Origin: a virus
Reading direction: 5' to 3' (one strand)
Length of the DNA: 47,105 bases
IMG/VR virus record: IMGVR_UViG_3300025314_000035
Coordinates: 1-47,105 of that record
Each line of letters begins with the position of its first letter. The first letter of the stretch is position 1. Under the pieces are notes generated by a model. That model was not told the origin of the DNA, made no database searches, and saw only the letters and a list, made by a program, of their open reading frames with translations. The translations under genes were made by a program, and so were the position numbers. This document shows positions 8,172 to 30,177 of the stretch, piece by piece.

Positions 8172-8201
8172 TTGGCAGTTTTATTATGGGAAAACTACCA
8201 A
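8172..8201 (-). promoter_or_regulatory. Intergenic stem-loop with T run, before the small membrane protein
   Basis: An 11-position stem with one mismatch (TTGG-AGTTTT against AAAACT-CCAA) and an 8-base loop lies in the gap between the beta-helix gene and the membrane-protein gene. On the minus-strand transcript it is followed by TTTTG and then AAAGGA and ATG. It could be a weak terminator that lowers expression of the downstream membrane protein, or a processing site. Confidence 0.45.
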
Positions 8202-8251
8202 AAACCAATCAATCATTAAATCCAGGGAGTTAATTTAATGACTAATTATTG

Positions 8252-9241
8252 TTATGCACCAGGAGGTGATGTAACAGTTAGTGCTGCTGTTCCTTCTGCA
8301 TAGTTATTCCATGTATCAGTAGTTCCTCCACTATAACCATTAGAAATCTGAATCTCAGAAGCAATATTCTTAAACTGATTCAGTATAACATGGTTATTAT
8401 TACCTTGGCCCGAAACTGCAATGGTAGAAACAACTTTGTTAGTTGAGCCAGAACCAGCAGTATAGAATCTACTTCCTTCAATTAAGCTCTGACTTAATGA
8501 CATTTTAATATCATTAAGATTTGAGATAAATTGACAATTTTTAATCATCCATGCTAAGGGAACAGCAATTCCTGTTGAAATACCTTTAATTGCTGTATCT
8601 CCAAGAGATTCAAACCTACAATCTTCTATTAATACATGTCCACATCCACCAACATCTTCAATCCCAATACCATTTGCACCACCACCAACAAAGTAGCAGC
8701 CAACAAATGTTGCATGAGATCCATCCATATCTGCTGCTGTTTCAGCGCGAGATAATCTTACACAAGCAGAAGTAGCAACAGGAGCAAACATCATGTTATA
8801 GATTGACCATGATTGTTCACGCAATTTAAGTAATGGAGTTGTAGCTGCTGGACTTGCAGGAGATAACCAAGAAGCACCACCACCTGTAGCAACACCTGCA
8901 TCAGTAGCTTGTCGTGGTCTATTACAAGCACCAACAATTGTTACATCAAATACATCCTGTGGTGCAACACATTGTTCCTTAATGACTCCATTAACAAGAA
9001 TCATTCCATAATTTCCAACAACAGCTAATGCTTCTGCCATTGTAAGAAATGCACTATCCCATGATAATCCATCTCCAGATGCTCCACCATAGGTATCTAC
9101 AAAGTATGTAATACCATTACCAATTGCCTGTGGAGCTAACTGACCACCATCAGAAAGTAATGCAAAAGTATTTCCAACGCGCTGTCCTTGTACTGCTTGT
9201 GTAAGACGCGCCCAAATAGAATCGATTGAATTAGTCGGCAT
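8252..9241 (-). CDS. Right-handed parallel beta-helix virion protein, 329 aa
   Basis: The motif ITYFVDTYGGASGDGLSWDSAFLTMAEAL at about residues 44-72 is the opening of many pectate-lyase-like beta-helix proteins. Short repeated rungs follow (HVLIEDCRFES, AWMIKNCQFIS, SLIEGSRFYT). Such folds serve as tail spikes, depolymerases or capsid-decorating fibres. The last 30 residues are Gly/Thr-rich. AAAGGTG lies upstream of the ATG. Catalytic residues are not evident, so binding rather than cutting is equally possible. Confidence 0.7.
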   Translation of the reverse strand: MPTNSIDSIWARLTQAVQGQRVGNTFALLSDGGQLAPQAIGNGITYFVDTYGGASGDGLSWDSAFLTMAEALAVVGNYGMILVNGVIKEQCVAPQDVFDVTIVGACNRPRQATDAGVATGGGASWLSPASPAATTPLLKLREQSWSIYNMMFAPVATSACVRLSRAETAADMDGSHATFVGCYFVGGGANGIGIEDVGGCGHVLIEDCRFESLGDTAIKGISTGIAVPLAWMIKNCQFISNLNDIKMSLSQSLIEGSRFYTAGSGSTNKVVSTIAVSGQGNNNHVILNQFKNIASEIQISNGYSGGTTDTWNNYAEGTAALTVTSPPGA

Positions 9242-17227: not shown

Positions 17228-18856
17228 TTACATCCTATAAGCAGGTCTACGCGCATGATATCTTTTAATAGGCATTGGAAATCCATCTTTAGCAATTTCC
17301 ATTTTTCTACTATTTCGATAAAATGCAGTCCAATCTTGAGTATTTTGTAGTAATCTTTCTAATGCTTCTTGTTGTTCAACGCGCTTCATTTCATCTACTG
17401 ATTCACTAAAGAATCTATCTGCCCCATCACATAAATATCTTAATGCATCATATGGATCATCACCAGGAAATTCCGATACATCTTGAGTATGAGTCTTGTC
17501 ATAGAAACAAGTTTTAATTGCACTAATTAGTCCTTCACATGATTTGAATATCTGCAATTTAGGAAGATTATCTTCTTGTTCAGGAGGACTTAATGATTTA
17601 ATATATGCATCATAATCTGCTTGAGTCTTATTACGAATTAACCAATCAGCAAATTCTGGTTTGAATACAGGTAATTCTGTTTCAGGAATATATTTCTGTG
17701 CCCATCTTAAGTATTCATGAACTAGCATCTTGCCCGAAATACGAGATCCCTGCGAATTACCAGTTAATTCAACTGATCTATCTAATGCTGATTCTATTTG
17801 CTGATGAATTGTATGTTCTTGCCCTCGATTTTGTGCAGCAGATTGACATAACCTAATAACACGAGGATTTTCTTTTTCTAAATAAGGCTTTGCTTCCGCA
17901 CACCATTCTTCAATTTTCTTTCGCTGCCACATTAATTCGCGATAAACATAAAGTTTCTTACCTGGACTAATTGCTCCAAACAACATACACGTTGCAGCAG
18001 GGGGAGCAAATCCCCAATCTAATGAAACAATCTTAGGCCACCATGTAGGAATATGAATTGGATCAATTACATGCAACGCATTATCTGGTTCATCTGAATA
18101 TCGTTTCTCGCGAAATTCATCAAATACTGCACCTTCATAAGCATTCCAGTCACCATATTTTTTAGCTTTACGTTCTGCTTCTGGTAATGCATCTAAGTCA
18201 TTTTTATATTGCTGTGCAATATGTGGATTATCATCAATTGTTGCGGGAATAAATACGCGCTTTACTCCACCGCGTCCTACAATTATCTTTCCACCGTCTG
18301 GGTATGGCTTGATGAAACGTTTATAAACAAACTGATGCCCAATATTTCCTGGATTTGATGCACTTCGAGCAATCATAGGAAGAACATGTTTTAAATGTTC
18401 ATCAACTCTGATACGCTGTAATACGATATAAGTATAGATCCATTCAGTAAAAGTAGTTAACTCATCAAATGCTACATAATTAGGCTGCATTGAATCATAA
18501 TTATGCACATCATCTTCATGCTCACAATGCCCCATGAAATACAACGCGCCCGATGGAAAAGTAAATACTCCATCTGCTGCATTATATGTTGCGCCAAATG
18601 GCCTAAAGAAATTCTTAGCGCGCGGAATTATTTCTCGTCTTAACTCAGGCATTGTTCTACGAAGAAATAATCCTTTAAAACTTTCGTGCTCATGCCATCC
18701 GAAAACTATCGGATACATTAATAATACATCTGATTTACCAGAACCAACACTTCCACCATATAGAGCTTCTTTTATAGTAAGCGGTATGCTTAAAAAACGC
18801 TCTTGTTTCACGGTCGGGCGCCATGAAAATTGTCCGGTTTCAATATCCCTAATCAT
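17228..18856 (-). CDS. terL: Terminase large subunit, 542 aa
   Basis: ATPase and nuclease that pumps DNA into the procapsid. Walker A is GGSVGSGKS at residues 34-42, and Walker B is YVAFDELT at about 125-132. The nuclease part shows the acidic strand VSLDWGF near residue 271 and the late GDDPYDALRYLCDG segment near 485, typical of RuvC-like terminase nucleases. Its length is normal. The ATG at 18856 overlaps the stop of the HNH gene (TAATG), so the two are co-translated. Confidence 0.92.
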   Translation of the reverse strand: MIRDIETGQFSWRPTVKQERFLSIPLTIKEALYGGSVGSGKSDVLLMYPIVFGWHEHESFKGLFLRRTMPELRREIIPRAKNFFRPFGATYNAADGVFTFPSGALYFMGHCEHEDDVHNYDSMQPNYVAFDELTTFTEWIYTYIVLQRIRVDEHLKHVLPMIARSASNPGNIGHQFVYKRFIKPYPDGGKIIVGRGGVKRVFIPATIDDNPHIAQQYKNDLDALPEAERKAKKYGDWNAYEGAVFDEFREKRYSDEPDNALHVIDPIHIPTWWPKIVSLDWGFAPPAATCMLFGAISPGKKLYVYRELMWQRKKIEEWCAEAKPYLEKENPRVIRLCQSAAQNRGQEHTIHQQIESALDRSVELTGNSQGSRISGKMLVHEYLRWAQKYIPETELPVFKPEFADWLIRNKTQADYDAYIKSLSPPEQEDNLPKLQIFKSCEGLISAIKTCFYDKTHTQDVSEFPGDDPYDALRYLCDGADRFFSESVDEMKRVEQQEALERLLQNTQDWTAFYRNSRKMEIAKDGFPMPIKRYHARRPAYRM

Positions 18857-26808: not shown

Positions 26809-26991
26809 ATGGAATGCCTAATCTGTGATGGAGTCTACAACATCAAGCGCGATTGCTGCCCATATTGTGGCGCGTTCAAAGTAGGGAATAAGCACTATGA
26901 TAAGCATAATGGAATGCGTGAGTTAGCACGAGTAATTCCACGAAAGATTGTGCAGTTCTCAGAACTAAGAATCAAGTCAGAACTGGCATAG
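26809..26991 (+). CDS. Small zinc-ribbon protein, 60 aa
   Basis: The start MECLICDGVYNIKRDCCPYCGAFKVG holds two CxxC knuckles 13 residues apart, a clear zinc ribbon. A basic tail follows (MRELARVIPRKIVQ). Start chosen at ATG 26809, since the stop of the previous gene and a GGATGG ribosome site lie just before it. It is the last gene before the bidirectional hairpin terminator. Likely nucleic-acid or protein binding. Confidence 0.65.
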   Translation: MECLICDGVYNIKRDCCPYCGAFKVGNKHYDKHNGMRELARVIPRKIVQFSELRIKSELA

Positions 26992-27007: not shown

Positions 27008-27380
27008 AAAAAGCAAAATAGCCTGTTAGGAAGTTTATTCCCTAACAGGCTATTATTGTTTATGAGGCTATAGAAACACAAATAGCCTAGATACAGGTTT
27101 TATCCCATATCCAAGCTATTGCGTGAGTAACCTTATTTTAGGTTTGGCGCTAGTAACTACCCTACTCTAGTCACCGATACGAGCCCTAGTAGCTTTTTTA
27201 TACGTGGTATCTACCTAGTCTCATAATAGACTGCCACGGTAGATAGTTGCTTAGGCTATCTACGGTTCGCATTAGGTGACTGATAATCTACCCTTGTCAC
27301 CTAATGCCGCACTGAGCCTATCACCCTATTTATACTCGCTCAGTCGAGTTATGAGAGTATGTATGAATCCCTTACTCTCA
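27008..27380 (-). ncRNA. Candidate structured noncoding RNA, about 370 nt
   Basis: No convincing gene exists between 26992 and 27431. A promoter at 27415-27387 predicts a start at about 27380, which is the first base of an 8-bp stem (27373-27380/27352-27359). Further stems follow: 27338-27344/27311-27317 (7 bp), 27296-27307/27269-27280 (12 bp), 27256-27263/27239-27246 (8 bp) or the competing 27238-27245/27208-27215 (8 bp), and 27082-27088/27065-27071 (7 bp). A 14-bp terminator with TTTTGCTTTTT ends the unit. No known RNA family recognised by eye. Confidence 0.5.
27017..27054. terminator. Bidirectional hairpin terminator
   Basis: AATAGCCTGTTAGG (27017-27030) pairs perfectly with 27041-27054 around a 10-base loop. 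On the minus strand it is followed by TTGCTTTTT, a good U tract. On the plus strand it is followed by ATTGTTT, a weaker one. It can end both the rightward small-gene group and the leftward RNA. Confidence 0.8.
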
Positions 27381-27431: not shown

Positions 27432-27824
27432 CTAAGCCTTCAAGATGCTCTCTGCTGTTGCTCGCACCTTCTCAGTCGCCCAATCCTTATGTGCAGTCTT
27501 GATAGAATCCATAAGGTTCTTGAGTTGAAATTCGGGAGTAGTCTCGTAAATCTCTCGAAGTTCCTTTGTAGCACTTTGCATCGATGAAGTCTTTGCAGCA
27601 ACGAACTTCTGTCGATTGACTGCCTCGAAAATATCCTTGTCACCAAACCAATCCTTTGATTCCCTTGCTTCTGGAATACCCTCATACTGCAATGGATCAA
27701 ACTTGTAAAGAATGGGCTTTTTCAAGTCTTCGCCCATGAAAGTCTTGACTTCGGCGGAAAGAGCATCATCAATTTCTGACTGACTCTTTCCCTCGGCTGC
27801 GAGTAGTTCACTAAGTCGCTTCAT
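27432..27824 (-). CDS. Hypothetical leftward protein, 130 aa
   Basis: Starts at ATG 27824 with AAGGGAG upstream. The protein is helical and charged, with MKRLSELLAAEGKSQSEIDDALSAEVKTFMGEDLKK at the start and an Ala/Glu/Lys-rich helical end. The middle has FDPLQYEGIPEARESKDWFGDKDIFEAVNRQKF. No family recognised. It is the only gene of the leftward control transcript and is preceded by a structured leader, so its expression is probably controlled closely. Codon use is less AT-biased than in the arms. Confidence 0.7.
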   Translation of the reverse strand: MKRLSELLAAEGKSQSEIDDALSAEVKTFMGEDLKKPILYKFDPLQYEGIPEARESKDWFGDKDIFEAVNRQKFVAAKTSSMQSATKELREIYETTPEFQLKNLMDSIKTAHKDWATEKVRATAESILKA

Positions 27825-28087: not shown

Positions 28088-28263
28088 AAGGTGCCAAAGG
28101 ATTGACTGGTCAGTTTATTGACATGTCCTCAAAACATTACATGGTGGCTTCGGCTTCCTTTACTTGAAGTCTCATCATGCCTACTAGGCAGTCTCACACG
28201 ACTTGGAGACCGTAAGCCTTGCCAAGTCAGTCACTTAGGGCAATTCTTCAATCCAGCACTACC

Positions 28264-28292
28264 ATGATAGCACCCTTCCGAGCCAGAGTCAA
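28264..28292 (-). promoter_or_regulatory. Leftward divergent promoter (extended -10)
   Basis: TTGACT (28292-28287), a 17-bp spacer ending TGC, and TATCAT (28269-28264). It matches the rightward promoter at 28403-28431 in -35, TGC and initial GTGCTG. The palindrome at 28295-28308 lies 2 bp upstream of the -35. The start near 28257 would give a leftward RNA with stems such as GACTTGG/CCAAGTC before reaching the next promoter. Confidence 0.65.
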
Positions 28293-28294
28293 TC

Positions 28295-28308
28295 GTCAAG
28301 TTCTTGAC
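28295..28308. promoter_or_regulatory. Operator-like palindrome GTCAA-N4-TTGAC, copy 2
   Basis: GTCAAGTTCTTGAC lies 2 bp upstream of the leftward -35 box, centred near -44. This is the usual place for an activator that touches RNA polymerase, or for a repressor that blocks it. Confidence 0.6.
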
Positions 28309-28338
28309 ACCTTCCTCGTAAAAGTTAGTAGTAAGGTC

Positions 28339-28362
28339 TTTGTTTTTTTTATTTTTTTTTTT
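28339..28362. other. Poly-T tract between divergent promoters
   Basis: A run of T broken only by one G and one A lies between the two divergent promoters. It may bend DNA or act as an A/T-rich upstream element for both. Assembly errors are possible in such runs. Confidence 0.6.
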
Positions 28363-28386
28363 ACAACTAACCATTACAAGTAACAC

Positions 28387-28400
28387 GTCAAGAACTTGAC
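28387..28400. promoter_or_regulatory. Operator-like palindrome GTCAA-N4-TTGAC, copy 3
   Basis: GTCAAGAACTTGAC, the exact reverse complement of copy 2, is placed 2 bp upstream of the rightward -35 box. The mirror placement at both promoters points to one regulator controlling both directions. Confidence 0.6.
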
Positions 28401-28402
28401 AC

Positions 28403-28431
28403 TTGACTCGGGGCCAAACCCATGCTACCAT
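28403..28431 (+). promoter_or_regulatory. Rightward promoter of the replication module (extended -10)
   Basis: TTGACT (28403-28408), a 17-bp spacer ending TGC, and TACCAT (28426-28431). The predicted start near 28438 precedes a structured leader and the long rightward gene series. It is the only clear promoter found for that series. Confidence 0.65.
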
Positions 28432-28437
28432 AGGGAC

Positions 28438-28600
28438 GTGCTGAGTGCTTCGGGTGGCTAAGTGCTTACGAGTCAGCTACTTGGAGCCATACGGGCATGC
28501 TGGAAGGCCACAGGGGGCACCGAGAGACTGAACCGAAAGGTCGCAGAACCTGGCATCCAAAAACTTCGGAGCCTCTGAACTATTACTAATGGAGATGATG
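28438..28600 (+). ncRNA. Structured leader of the rightward operon
   Basis: No gene. Visible stems include GTGCT (28438-28442) with GGCAC (28516-28520), which closes from the predicted start base; a nested TGGCT/AGCCA and inner GCT/AGC set at about 28454-28488; and an ACC-GAAA-GGT hairpin with a GNRA loop near 28532-28541. It could be a leader that senses something or protects the RNA end. No known class recognised. Confidence 0.4.
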
Positions 28601-28737: not shown

Positions 28738-28853
28738 TTGAAATAATTATAATAGATAGCAGGATTTGATTATTATAGGTTGGACCTATAAAAATAATTG
28801 AATGGTTTTACTACGTTCAAATCGTAGCTGCTATCTATTATAATTATTTTCAA
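28738..28853 (+). ncRNA. tRNA-like three-way junction with a long stem
   Basis: A perfect 22-bp stem (28741-28762 with 28828-28849, extended past a bulge) encloses two arms. One is CTACG-TTCAAAT-CGTAG (28811-28827), which matches the T arm and T-loop consensus and abuts the stem exactly as in tRNA. The other is TATAG-GTTGGAC-CTATA (28774-28790), a 5-bp stem with a 7-base loop like an anticodon arm, with TGG in the anticodon place. A D arm and CCA end are missing. It is either a tRNA-like control element or a decayed tRNA. Confidence 0.5.
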
Positions 28854-28965
28854 GTTTTGCGTCGAATTGCATAAATGAGATAAATATGACTAAAAATTAC
28901 AAAGTTTGTGCAATAAAGCACAATACGCGAGTAACTAGCGATATAGTTACATAACCTAACCTAAC

Positions 28966-29292
28966 ATGACACTTCATGTAGTGACTTACAAAGAGAAAAT
29001 TTTCGACTTTCAAGTTGGACTAAGTAATAAACAGGCAGAATCAATCCACGCGCTAGTAGCTAGTAAAGGACCAGACTGGGGTTTTAATGAATTTGACATT
29101 ACAAACATAGTGCAATTCATAGAAAACATCAAAAACGGATATACTGAGCATCAAGCAGAATTTTGGCCCAAAAAAGCATTAGAATGTGCTAGTAAAGATC
29201 ATGATGTATCAGGTAAATGGGATAAAGAAAAGAACGTGGATATTTTCACTTGTAATGATTGCAAGTGGGAACTTGAGCATCCAAGGCAATAG
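28966..29292 (+). CDS. Hypothetical protein, 108 aa
   Basis: First larger gene of the rightward module. Starts MTLHVVTYKEKIFDFQVGLSN, then helical. The end has CNDCKWELEHPRQ, half of a zinc site that may pair with an earlier Cys/His (ECASKDHD). No clear ribosome site precedes the ATG. A GC-rich hairpin follows the gene. Function unknown. Confidence 0.65.
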   Translation: MTLHVVTYKEKIFDFQVGLSNKQAESIHALVASKGPDWGFNEFDITNIVQFIENIKNGYTEHQAEFWPKKALECASKDHDVSGKWDKEKNVDIFTCNDCKWELEHPRQ

Positions 29293-29302
29293 ATAATCCA
29301 GT

Positions 29303-29330
29303 TTGGCCGTATCTGTTGAAAAACGGCCAA
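29303..29330 (+). terminator. Hairpin terminator or attenuator after the 108-aa gene
   Basis: TTGGCCGT (29303-29310) pairs with ACGGCCAA (29323-29330), then TTATTG. The GC-rich stem and modest T run could reduce transcription into the replication genes. Confidence 0.5.
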
Positions 29331-29376
29331 TTATTGATAGAGAGATTGAATCATTATTACTAAAGCAATAACTAAA

Positions 29377-30177
29377 ATGATACACCCATTTATCCCATCC
29401 GTCCTAGATTCATCAAAATGTGCTATTTGTGCATTTGATGCAATTTCTCATGGTTCTAATGCAGAATGCGAATTTTGTGATTTTGTTGGTTCATGCGAAA
29501 TTGACTATGTTACAAAATCGCTTTGCTGTAGTTCATGTATGGATATCTCCGCGCGAGTTACTAGAGATGAAGCGCGAAATAATTTATCTCTAATTGATTC
29601 AAATGGACCTAATCCAAATCCTGAAACTGCAAGATTTATTCAAGATACAAATAGACTTCCCAATTTTTCACACGAAATCCATACTCCAGTAGATGAAGCC
29701 TTATCAATAATTGATGATTCAGATTTAATTGCTAACTCACAATTACTCGATAAAGCAATGAATCATATAACATTTTATAATGCTCAATCAATTCCAAATA
29801 TCGAATTGAAAAATGCAATTGATAATGATGATAGTATTCTGCCAGAAAATAAACTCGAAAGATATTCACAAGTAATGCTAGAAAGATTCGAGACTTTTCA
29901 AAAGAATATTTGGGAGCATCAGAATATTGTATATGAGAATACCGAACGCGCATTAAAAATTCGAGATGATTTAAGAGCATTTGGTAATGGTATTCGTAGA
30001 GAGATTAGAGAAAAATTAACTTTACAAGATTCTGAATACCAGATTGAAAAGAAAGTAGTTAAGCCAGTTATCAAGAAGAAAACTGCACAAGAAAAACTCA
30101 TAGAAAATATTATGATTGCTCGAAATTGTAGTAAAGAGGAAGCTACTAAATTGTATGAAAAGATGGAATTGGGATAA
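29377..30177 (+). CDS. Hypothetical zinc-ribbon coiled-coil protein, 266 aa
   Basis: The N-terminal 60 residues hold several cysteine knuckles: CAIC, CEFC and a later CCSSC. The middle is acidic and helical, and residues about 165-215 look like a coiled coil (LERFETFQKNIWEHQNIVYENTERALKIRDDL). The end is basic with a small helical domain (RNCSKEEATKLYEKMELG). No family recognised. It may be a DNA-binding or replication accessory. Confidence 0.65.
   Translation: MIHPFIPSVLDSSKCAICAFDAISHGSNAECEFCDFVGSCEIDYVTKSLCCSSCMDISARVTRDEARNNLSLIDSNGPNPNPETARFIQDTNRLPNFSHEIHTPVDEALSIIDDSDLIANSQLLDKAMNHITFYNAQSIPNIELKNAIDNDDSILPENKLERYSQVMLERFETFQKNIWEHQNIVYENTERALKIRDDLRAFGNGIRREIREKLTLQDSEYQIEKKVVKPVIKKKTAQEKLIENIMIARNCSKEEATKLYEKMELG

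Follow-up and report, generated by a model that had tools for sequence, protein, structure and literature searches.

Pistol self-cleaving ribozymes and their association with phages are already known, and the class has been dissected chemically and structurally. Pistol cleavage leaves a 2′,3′-cyclic phosphate and a 5′-OH at a junction whose GU sequence varies but whose length of two nucleotides does not (Harris et al. 2015, PMC4604425), and purine 32 and G40 are the proposed general acid and base (PMC6154101). Among other described systems, the HDV-like theta ribozymes of gut phages process tRNA 3′ ends (PMC10879173), and of the ROOL and GOLLD RNAs the former is 659 nt long and the latter often over 800 nt (PMC12286853). 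In the literature that we searched, with most subscription journals outside its reach, Pistol ribozymes near phage genes were described with no natural role assigned, and we came across no arrangement of promoter, Pistol, short noncoding RNA and terminators forming an accessory phage cassette. The Pistol described here is a new member of the class, and it lies in a segment of a phage genome predicted to have such an arrangement.

The window, that is, the whole stretch of DNA analysed, is a virus record of 47,105 nt representing a tailed-phage genome, with the TerL gene on the minus strand (17228–18856) and helicase and DNA polymerase genes on the plus strand. The TerL identity to phage records was at most ~31 % among the matches listed, and a TerL-based search for prophages and hosts in ~85,000 species genomes found no relative, which together indicate an uncultured lineage. 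Identical TerL or flanking sequences in several other metagenome assemblies (L003, L004, L005–L008) reflect the same phage assembled repeatedly. The segment under study is bounded by the end of a plus-strand ORF at 26991 and the end of a minus-strand ORF at 27432, the latter belonging to a small gene for a 130-aa protein (27824–27432, minus). It contains no ORF of 70 aa or more, in agreement with a sequence-only reading that had called it gene-free. Two other elements of the window lie nearby. At 28738–28858 (plus) there is a very stable AT-rich element (z −6.1), in which a three-way junction is closed by an outer stem longer than 20 bp and has arms resembling the anticodon arm (TGG) and the T arm of a tRNA; it was called as tRNA-Pro by ARAGORN, not by Rfam, and is possibly a tRNA mimic or mobile hairpin. 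At 28250–28440 the sequence between the two gene arms is repeat-rich or forms a large, imperfect inverted repeat, is AT-rich at its centre and is followed by a TTGACA promoter. Similar regions were seen in G008 (29200–29600), G006 (8200–8700), L195 and L207, and regions of this type look like a replication origin.

The 5′ part of the putative RNA is almost certainly a Pistol ribozyme (27349–27264, minus). The sequence-only reading had been unable to match the RNA to GOLLD or ROOL; the Rfam scan made it largely identifiable, with a match to RF02679 at 27349–27295 (minus) of 39.7 bits against a cut-off of 34.5 (E 5.7e-5 for 4.1 kb). The low score is accounted for by a 12-bp P3 with a 15-nt loop, and because P3 is long here the Rfam alignment misplaces both P2 and P3; these helices and the junction were read by hand and by a parser. 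P1 (ACUCG/CGAGU, 27349–27345/27338–27334) carries the loop that forms the pseudoknot CUGAG/CUCAG with the P2–P3 junction (27343–27339/27316–27312), and is followed by the linker AUAAAUA (27333–27327), P2 (GGU/ACC, 27325–27323/27266–27264) and P3 (GCAUUAGGUGAC/GUCACCUAAUGC, 27307–27296/27280–27269). The last of these is the perfect 12-bp stem that had been noticed from the sequence alone. Catalytic purine 32 corresponds to G27318 and G40 to G27310 in the Rfam alignment. Given P3, a two-nucleotide GA junction (27268–27267) and P2 in this order, cleavage is expected between G27268 and A27267. The parser score of the window was 21, whilst only 1/119 shuffled controls reached 20 or more, and GA was the second most common junction among confidently parsed phage Pistols (13/40). 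Another phage Pistol (L053) has the same J (GAUAG) and the same GA junction, with P2 changed in a compensatory manner from GGU/ACC to GAU/AUC. Covariation, which the sequence-only reading had proposed as a check, was seen for the pseudoknot when phage relatives were compared: in 12 phage Pistols, chosen by their P1 sequence and assessed for the pseudoknot rather than P1, pairing was 100 % with double changes at four of the five pairs, and 0/500 shuffles reached the covariation score.

Within a set of 21 TerL relatives searched for Pistol, only one record besides the window exceeded the cut-off (G012, 49.1 bits). The TerL of G012 is 39 % identical to that of the window, and its Pistol lies ~7 kb upstream of TerL on the same strand. 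The order of elements is that of the window: a small gene, a TTGACA promoter, the Pistol, a gene-free segment and terminators. The predicted promoter of the window consists of TTGACA (27415–27410), a 17-nt spacer and TAGAGT (27392–27387) on the minus strand, scores 10/12 and would place the transcription start near 27380. Since six promoter-like sites were observed in the region against 6.1 expected, it is weak from the scan alone; its support comes from its quality, with an intact TTGACA and a TG before the −10 element, and from its recurrence in G012 (L031/L025), where a very similar promoter (TTGACA-17-TACAAT, 11/12) occupies the same place. The two also share their context, reading aGTGCTTGACA(17)TAGAGT in the window and aGTGCTTGACA(17)TACAAT in G012, with aTGC before the −10 element in both.

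The 5′ end of the predicted primary transcript folds into an 8-bp leader hairpin (UGAGAGUA/UACUCUCA, 27380–27352, minus), which is without counterpart in G012. At the other end, the terminator scan found two hairpins on the minus strand, terminator 1 (27120–27081) with a 17-pair stem and the tail TGTGTTTCTA, and terminator 2 (27054–27017) with a 16-pair stem and the tail TTGCTTTTTG. The gene-free stretch of G012 likewise ends in two hairpins, one with the tail TGTGTTTT, which follows GGCTATT and resembles the tail of terminator 1, and the other with the tail TGTGTGTT. The stem of terminator 2 is nearly identical to that of the terminator after the homologue of the G012 upstream gene in L193/L194 (AATAGCCTGTTAGGG..CCTTAACAGGCTATT). 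An Rfam match to the ‘trpB motif’ at 27117–27009 (35.5 bits against a cut-off of 59) was rejected as a terminator look-alike. The promoter and strong terminator that had been claimed from the sequence alone were thus both recovered, and the predicted start does fall on the first base of the leader hairpin. A promoter, an intact ribozyme and terminators, with no ORFs amongst them and the same layout in a relative, can accordingly be read from the DNA itself.

Fold statistics divided the segment into distinct parts. The minus-strand region 27400–27015 (386 nt) folds at −150 kcal/mol with a z-score of −9.2, and 0/100 shuffles were as good. The z-scores of the parts were −6.4 for the Pistol region and −7.3 for the two terminators, whilst the 147 nt between ribozyme and terminators folded no better than shuffles (z = −0.38) and were likewise at chance with pseudoknots allowed (z = −1.24). 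The density of dyads that the sequence-only reading had judged beyond chance therefore holds for the segment as a whole and not for its middle, and is that of the ribozyme and the terminators. This middle is the body of the predicted 3′ product (27267–27121, minus, ~147 nt), which would start with 5′-OH AACC and an 8-bp hairpin (GUAGAUAG/CUAUCUAC). The Rfam scans matched it to no known RNA family. The whole-segment DNA had no match in the phage records searched, and no homologues of the body that could be aligned in sequence were found beyond identical copies. Close relatives identified via the upstream protein comprised only two contigs, identical over the RNA. A search for antisense targets within the phage returned one 13-nt match, which we took as chance.

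The small gene upstream of the Pistol (27824–27432) occupies the same position as small genes upstream of the Pistol in relatives. Its protein had no match in Pfam or PHROG at E<0.05 and only weak profile similarity (probability 49 %) to the proteins upstream of four other Pistols (L132, L174, L156 and L143). The corresponding protein of G012, which we designated X, belongs to a set of relatives at 49 viral loci, that of G012 among them; profile comparison gave no homology between X and the 130-aa protein, their position being the same. Pistol was present in 9/49 of the X-bearing records and lay on the strand of X in all nine, starting within 120 nt of the X stop codon in six and 660–875 nt downstream in the other three. 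Most of the relatives without Pistol have a terminator directly after X, L193/L194 being examples. In several relatives (L059, L154 and L204) no promoter separates the gene from the Pistol. The locus is most simply read as an accessory Pistol cassette that sits after a small gene and before the terminator of that gene, and to which a further promoter is added in both the window and G012.

By a pattern scan, at least 120 phage-contig stretches were found to contain Pistol-like cores, and 50/50 of the records with such cores that were checked against Rfam were above the cut-off. About 18 of these loci carry homologues of the proteins of this phage or of G012, or are close sister sequences. In a sample selected by P1 sequence, with loci that are not phylogenetically independent, an ORF-poor segment followed 34 % of 118 phage Pistols against 11 % of random windows, and a terminator followed 22 % against 14 % of random windows and 6 % of shuffles; only 14/118 sites had both. 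As about two thirds of the sampled phage Pistols lack an ORF-poor segment after them, a Pistol is not in itself a sign of a noncoding RNA. Two uses of phage Pistols are plausible: to cut between genes or behind them, and to stand at the head of a noncoding RNA. Amongst cultured phages, the Pistol of Gordonia phage PatrickStar scored 34.2 bits, just below the cut-off of 34.5, that of Bacillus phage Troll (73.0 bits) lies between genes, and that of Gordonia phage GMA2 (L258, 56.8 bits) lies between two tRNAs, 4 nt after tRNA-Trp. Matches to tmRNA and, below the threshold, to a Y RNA-like RNA were also found in this tRNA cluster of GMA2.

Several recurrent features were observed around other phage Pistols. 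An RNA situated ~60–200 nt after the Pistol recurs at nine loci (L055, L080, L070, L120, L074, L095, L134, L139 and L161); a GAAACA hairpin loop pairs with a downstream GUUUCA to form a pseudoknot, the stem displays compensatory changes, and ACAUGGG mostly comes next, followed by a terminator hairpin. No Rfam match was found for this RNA in the members scanned. We considered the body of the window for this group and rejected it, as it is without both the GAAAC and the GUUUC motif. Downstream of the Pistol in L103, L204 and L237, duplicated CAAAGAAUAUG-like motifs flank a hairpin and are closed by UCAGCA/UGCUGA-type stems. Pistols also occur in arrays, with seven copies within 4.3 kb in L122 (G098), six within 6 kb in L118 (G096) and five near the contig ends in L083 (G082).

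We interpret the segment of the window as an accessory phage cassette of promoter, Pistol, short noncoding RNA and terminators, whose RNA would be processed by the ribozyme, and put the probability of this reading at roughly 0.6. RNA polymerase would start near 27380, or read through from the small gene, and produce a transcript of ~370 nt to terminator 2 or ~305 nt to terminator 1. The Pistol would fold during transcription and cut, freeing a leader plus ribozyme of ~113 nt with a 2′,3′-cyclic phosphate end and a 3′ RNA of ~190–260 nt, whose defined 5′-OH would lie beside a hairpin and whose 3′ end would carry a terminator stem. The ribozyme would thereby give the noncoding RNA one 5′ end whichever upstream transcript supplies it. 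A 5′-OH helps against 5′-phosphate-dependent RNases and should spare the 3′ RNA from enzymes needing a 5′-phosphate. The released 3′ RNA is taken as the functional, probably regulatory, product. We infer transcription, cleavage in the cell, stability, and selection on the 3′ RNA rather than on the cut.

The chief rival, which we consider rather unlikely, holds that the Pistol serves the upstream gene. It would lie in the 3′ UTR of 27824–27432 and cut the mRNA after the stop codon, setting its 3′ end and lifetime, with everything downstream being spacer and terminators; the resulting mRNA would end in a 2′,3′-cyclic phosphate without a terminator stem. That the Pistol is always downstream of X on the same strand, with six of nine within 120 nt of the stop, fits this idea, as do the absence of a fold signal in the body and the 59/112 Pistols of the wider sample with an ORF stop no more than 40 nt away. 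However, both the window and G012 have a promoter after the gene and ahead of the Pistol, from which some transcripts would include the ribozyme but not the gene, and the 40/49 X records without a Pistol indicate that X does not need one. Less probable still is that Pistol cassettes are hitch-hiking elements or relics, neutral or selfish and without function for the phage: their patchy distribution among relatives and unalignable bodies would be expected of such passengers, but the catalytic core is intact, as are the pseudoknot and P3; a promoter and two terminators are found again in G012; DNA with few ORFs comes at a cost to phages; and neither end repeats nor element-like borders were observed.

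Two further explanations we regard as very improbable. Self-cleaving ribozymes flank many circular RNAs, and the segment could on that ground give rise to a circular or satellite RNA by self-processing, yet there is only one Pistol in the whole window and the 3′ end is formed by terminators, with no second ribozyme. The resemblance to giant ornate phage RNAs of the GOLLD/ROOL kind, which the sequence-only reading had drawn from size and phage location, finds some encouragement in that location and in the density of stems, but it did not survive: the covariance models of GOLLD and ROOL had no match at the gathering or a permissive (E≤2) threshold, a transcript of ~370 nt is much too small, and the middle has no special structure. 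What stands of the earlier proposal, and is supported, is a structured noncoding RNA with its own predicted promoter and terminator.

The locus suggests that one use of Pistol is trimming the 5′ end of phage noncoding RNAs. We advance more tentatively, as a possibility that falls somewhat short of an even chance, that phage Pistols have a widespread and unrecognised role as 5′-end makers for varied accessory phage noncoding RNAs, the one in the window having its own promoter. Were this so, self-cleavage would give RNAs with a 5′-OH that resist host RNases, and the nine loci with the conserved GAAAC/GUUUC pseudoknot would make up at least one further group of these RNAs. With a Pistol that has its own promoter and heads a short, gene-free predicted transcript closed by terminators, mRNA cutting can be told apart from noncoding-RNA maturation as a possible role, and the question becomes testable; among cultured phages, those of Gordonia, Cellulosimicrobium and Bacillus that carry Pistols provide practical test systems.

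Compared with known systems, the putative RNA of the window is, like GOLLD and ROOL (PMC12286853), a phage-encoded noncoding RNA, but it is shorter and lacks an ornate body. It recalls the HDV-like theta ribozymes (PMC10879173) in that a small phage ribozyme would give a phage noncoding RNA a defined end, although the ribozyme here is of another class and would fix the 5′ end of an RNA rather than a tRNA 3′ end. Similar in layout are Gordonia phages Orchid and PatrickStar, in which the Pistol directly follows a small gene and precedes ~470 nt of unannotated sequence; their body sequence is unrelated to that of the window, and tRNA-Leu and tmRNA come next there. Cellulosimicrobium phage DS1 similarly has a Pistol (66.0 bits) after a small gene and then ~550 nt unannotated, again with an unrelated body. 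With the Pistol class itself (RF02679; PMC4604425) the window copy shares P1, the loop pseudoknot, the AUAAAUA linker, P2, P3, a two-nucleotide junction, purine 32 and G40, as well as a phage location, which is typical there. It differs from the usual Pistol in its GA junction, where GU is commoner in the class and GA is frequent in phages, in its 3-bp P2, and in its position at the head of a predicted transcript with its own promoter and two terminators.
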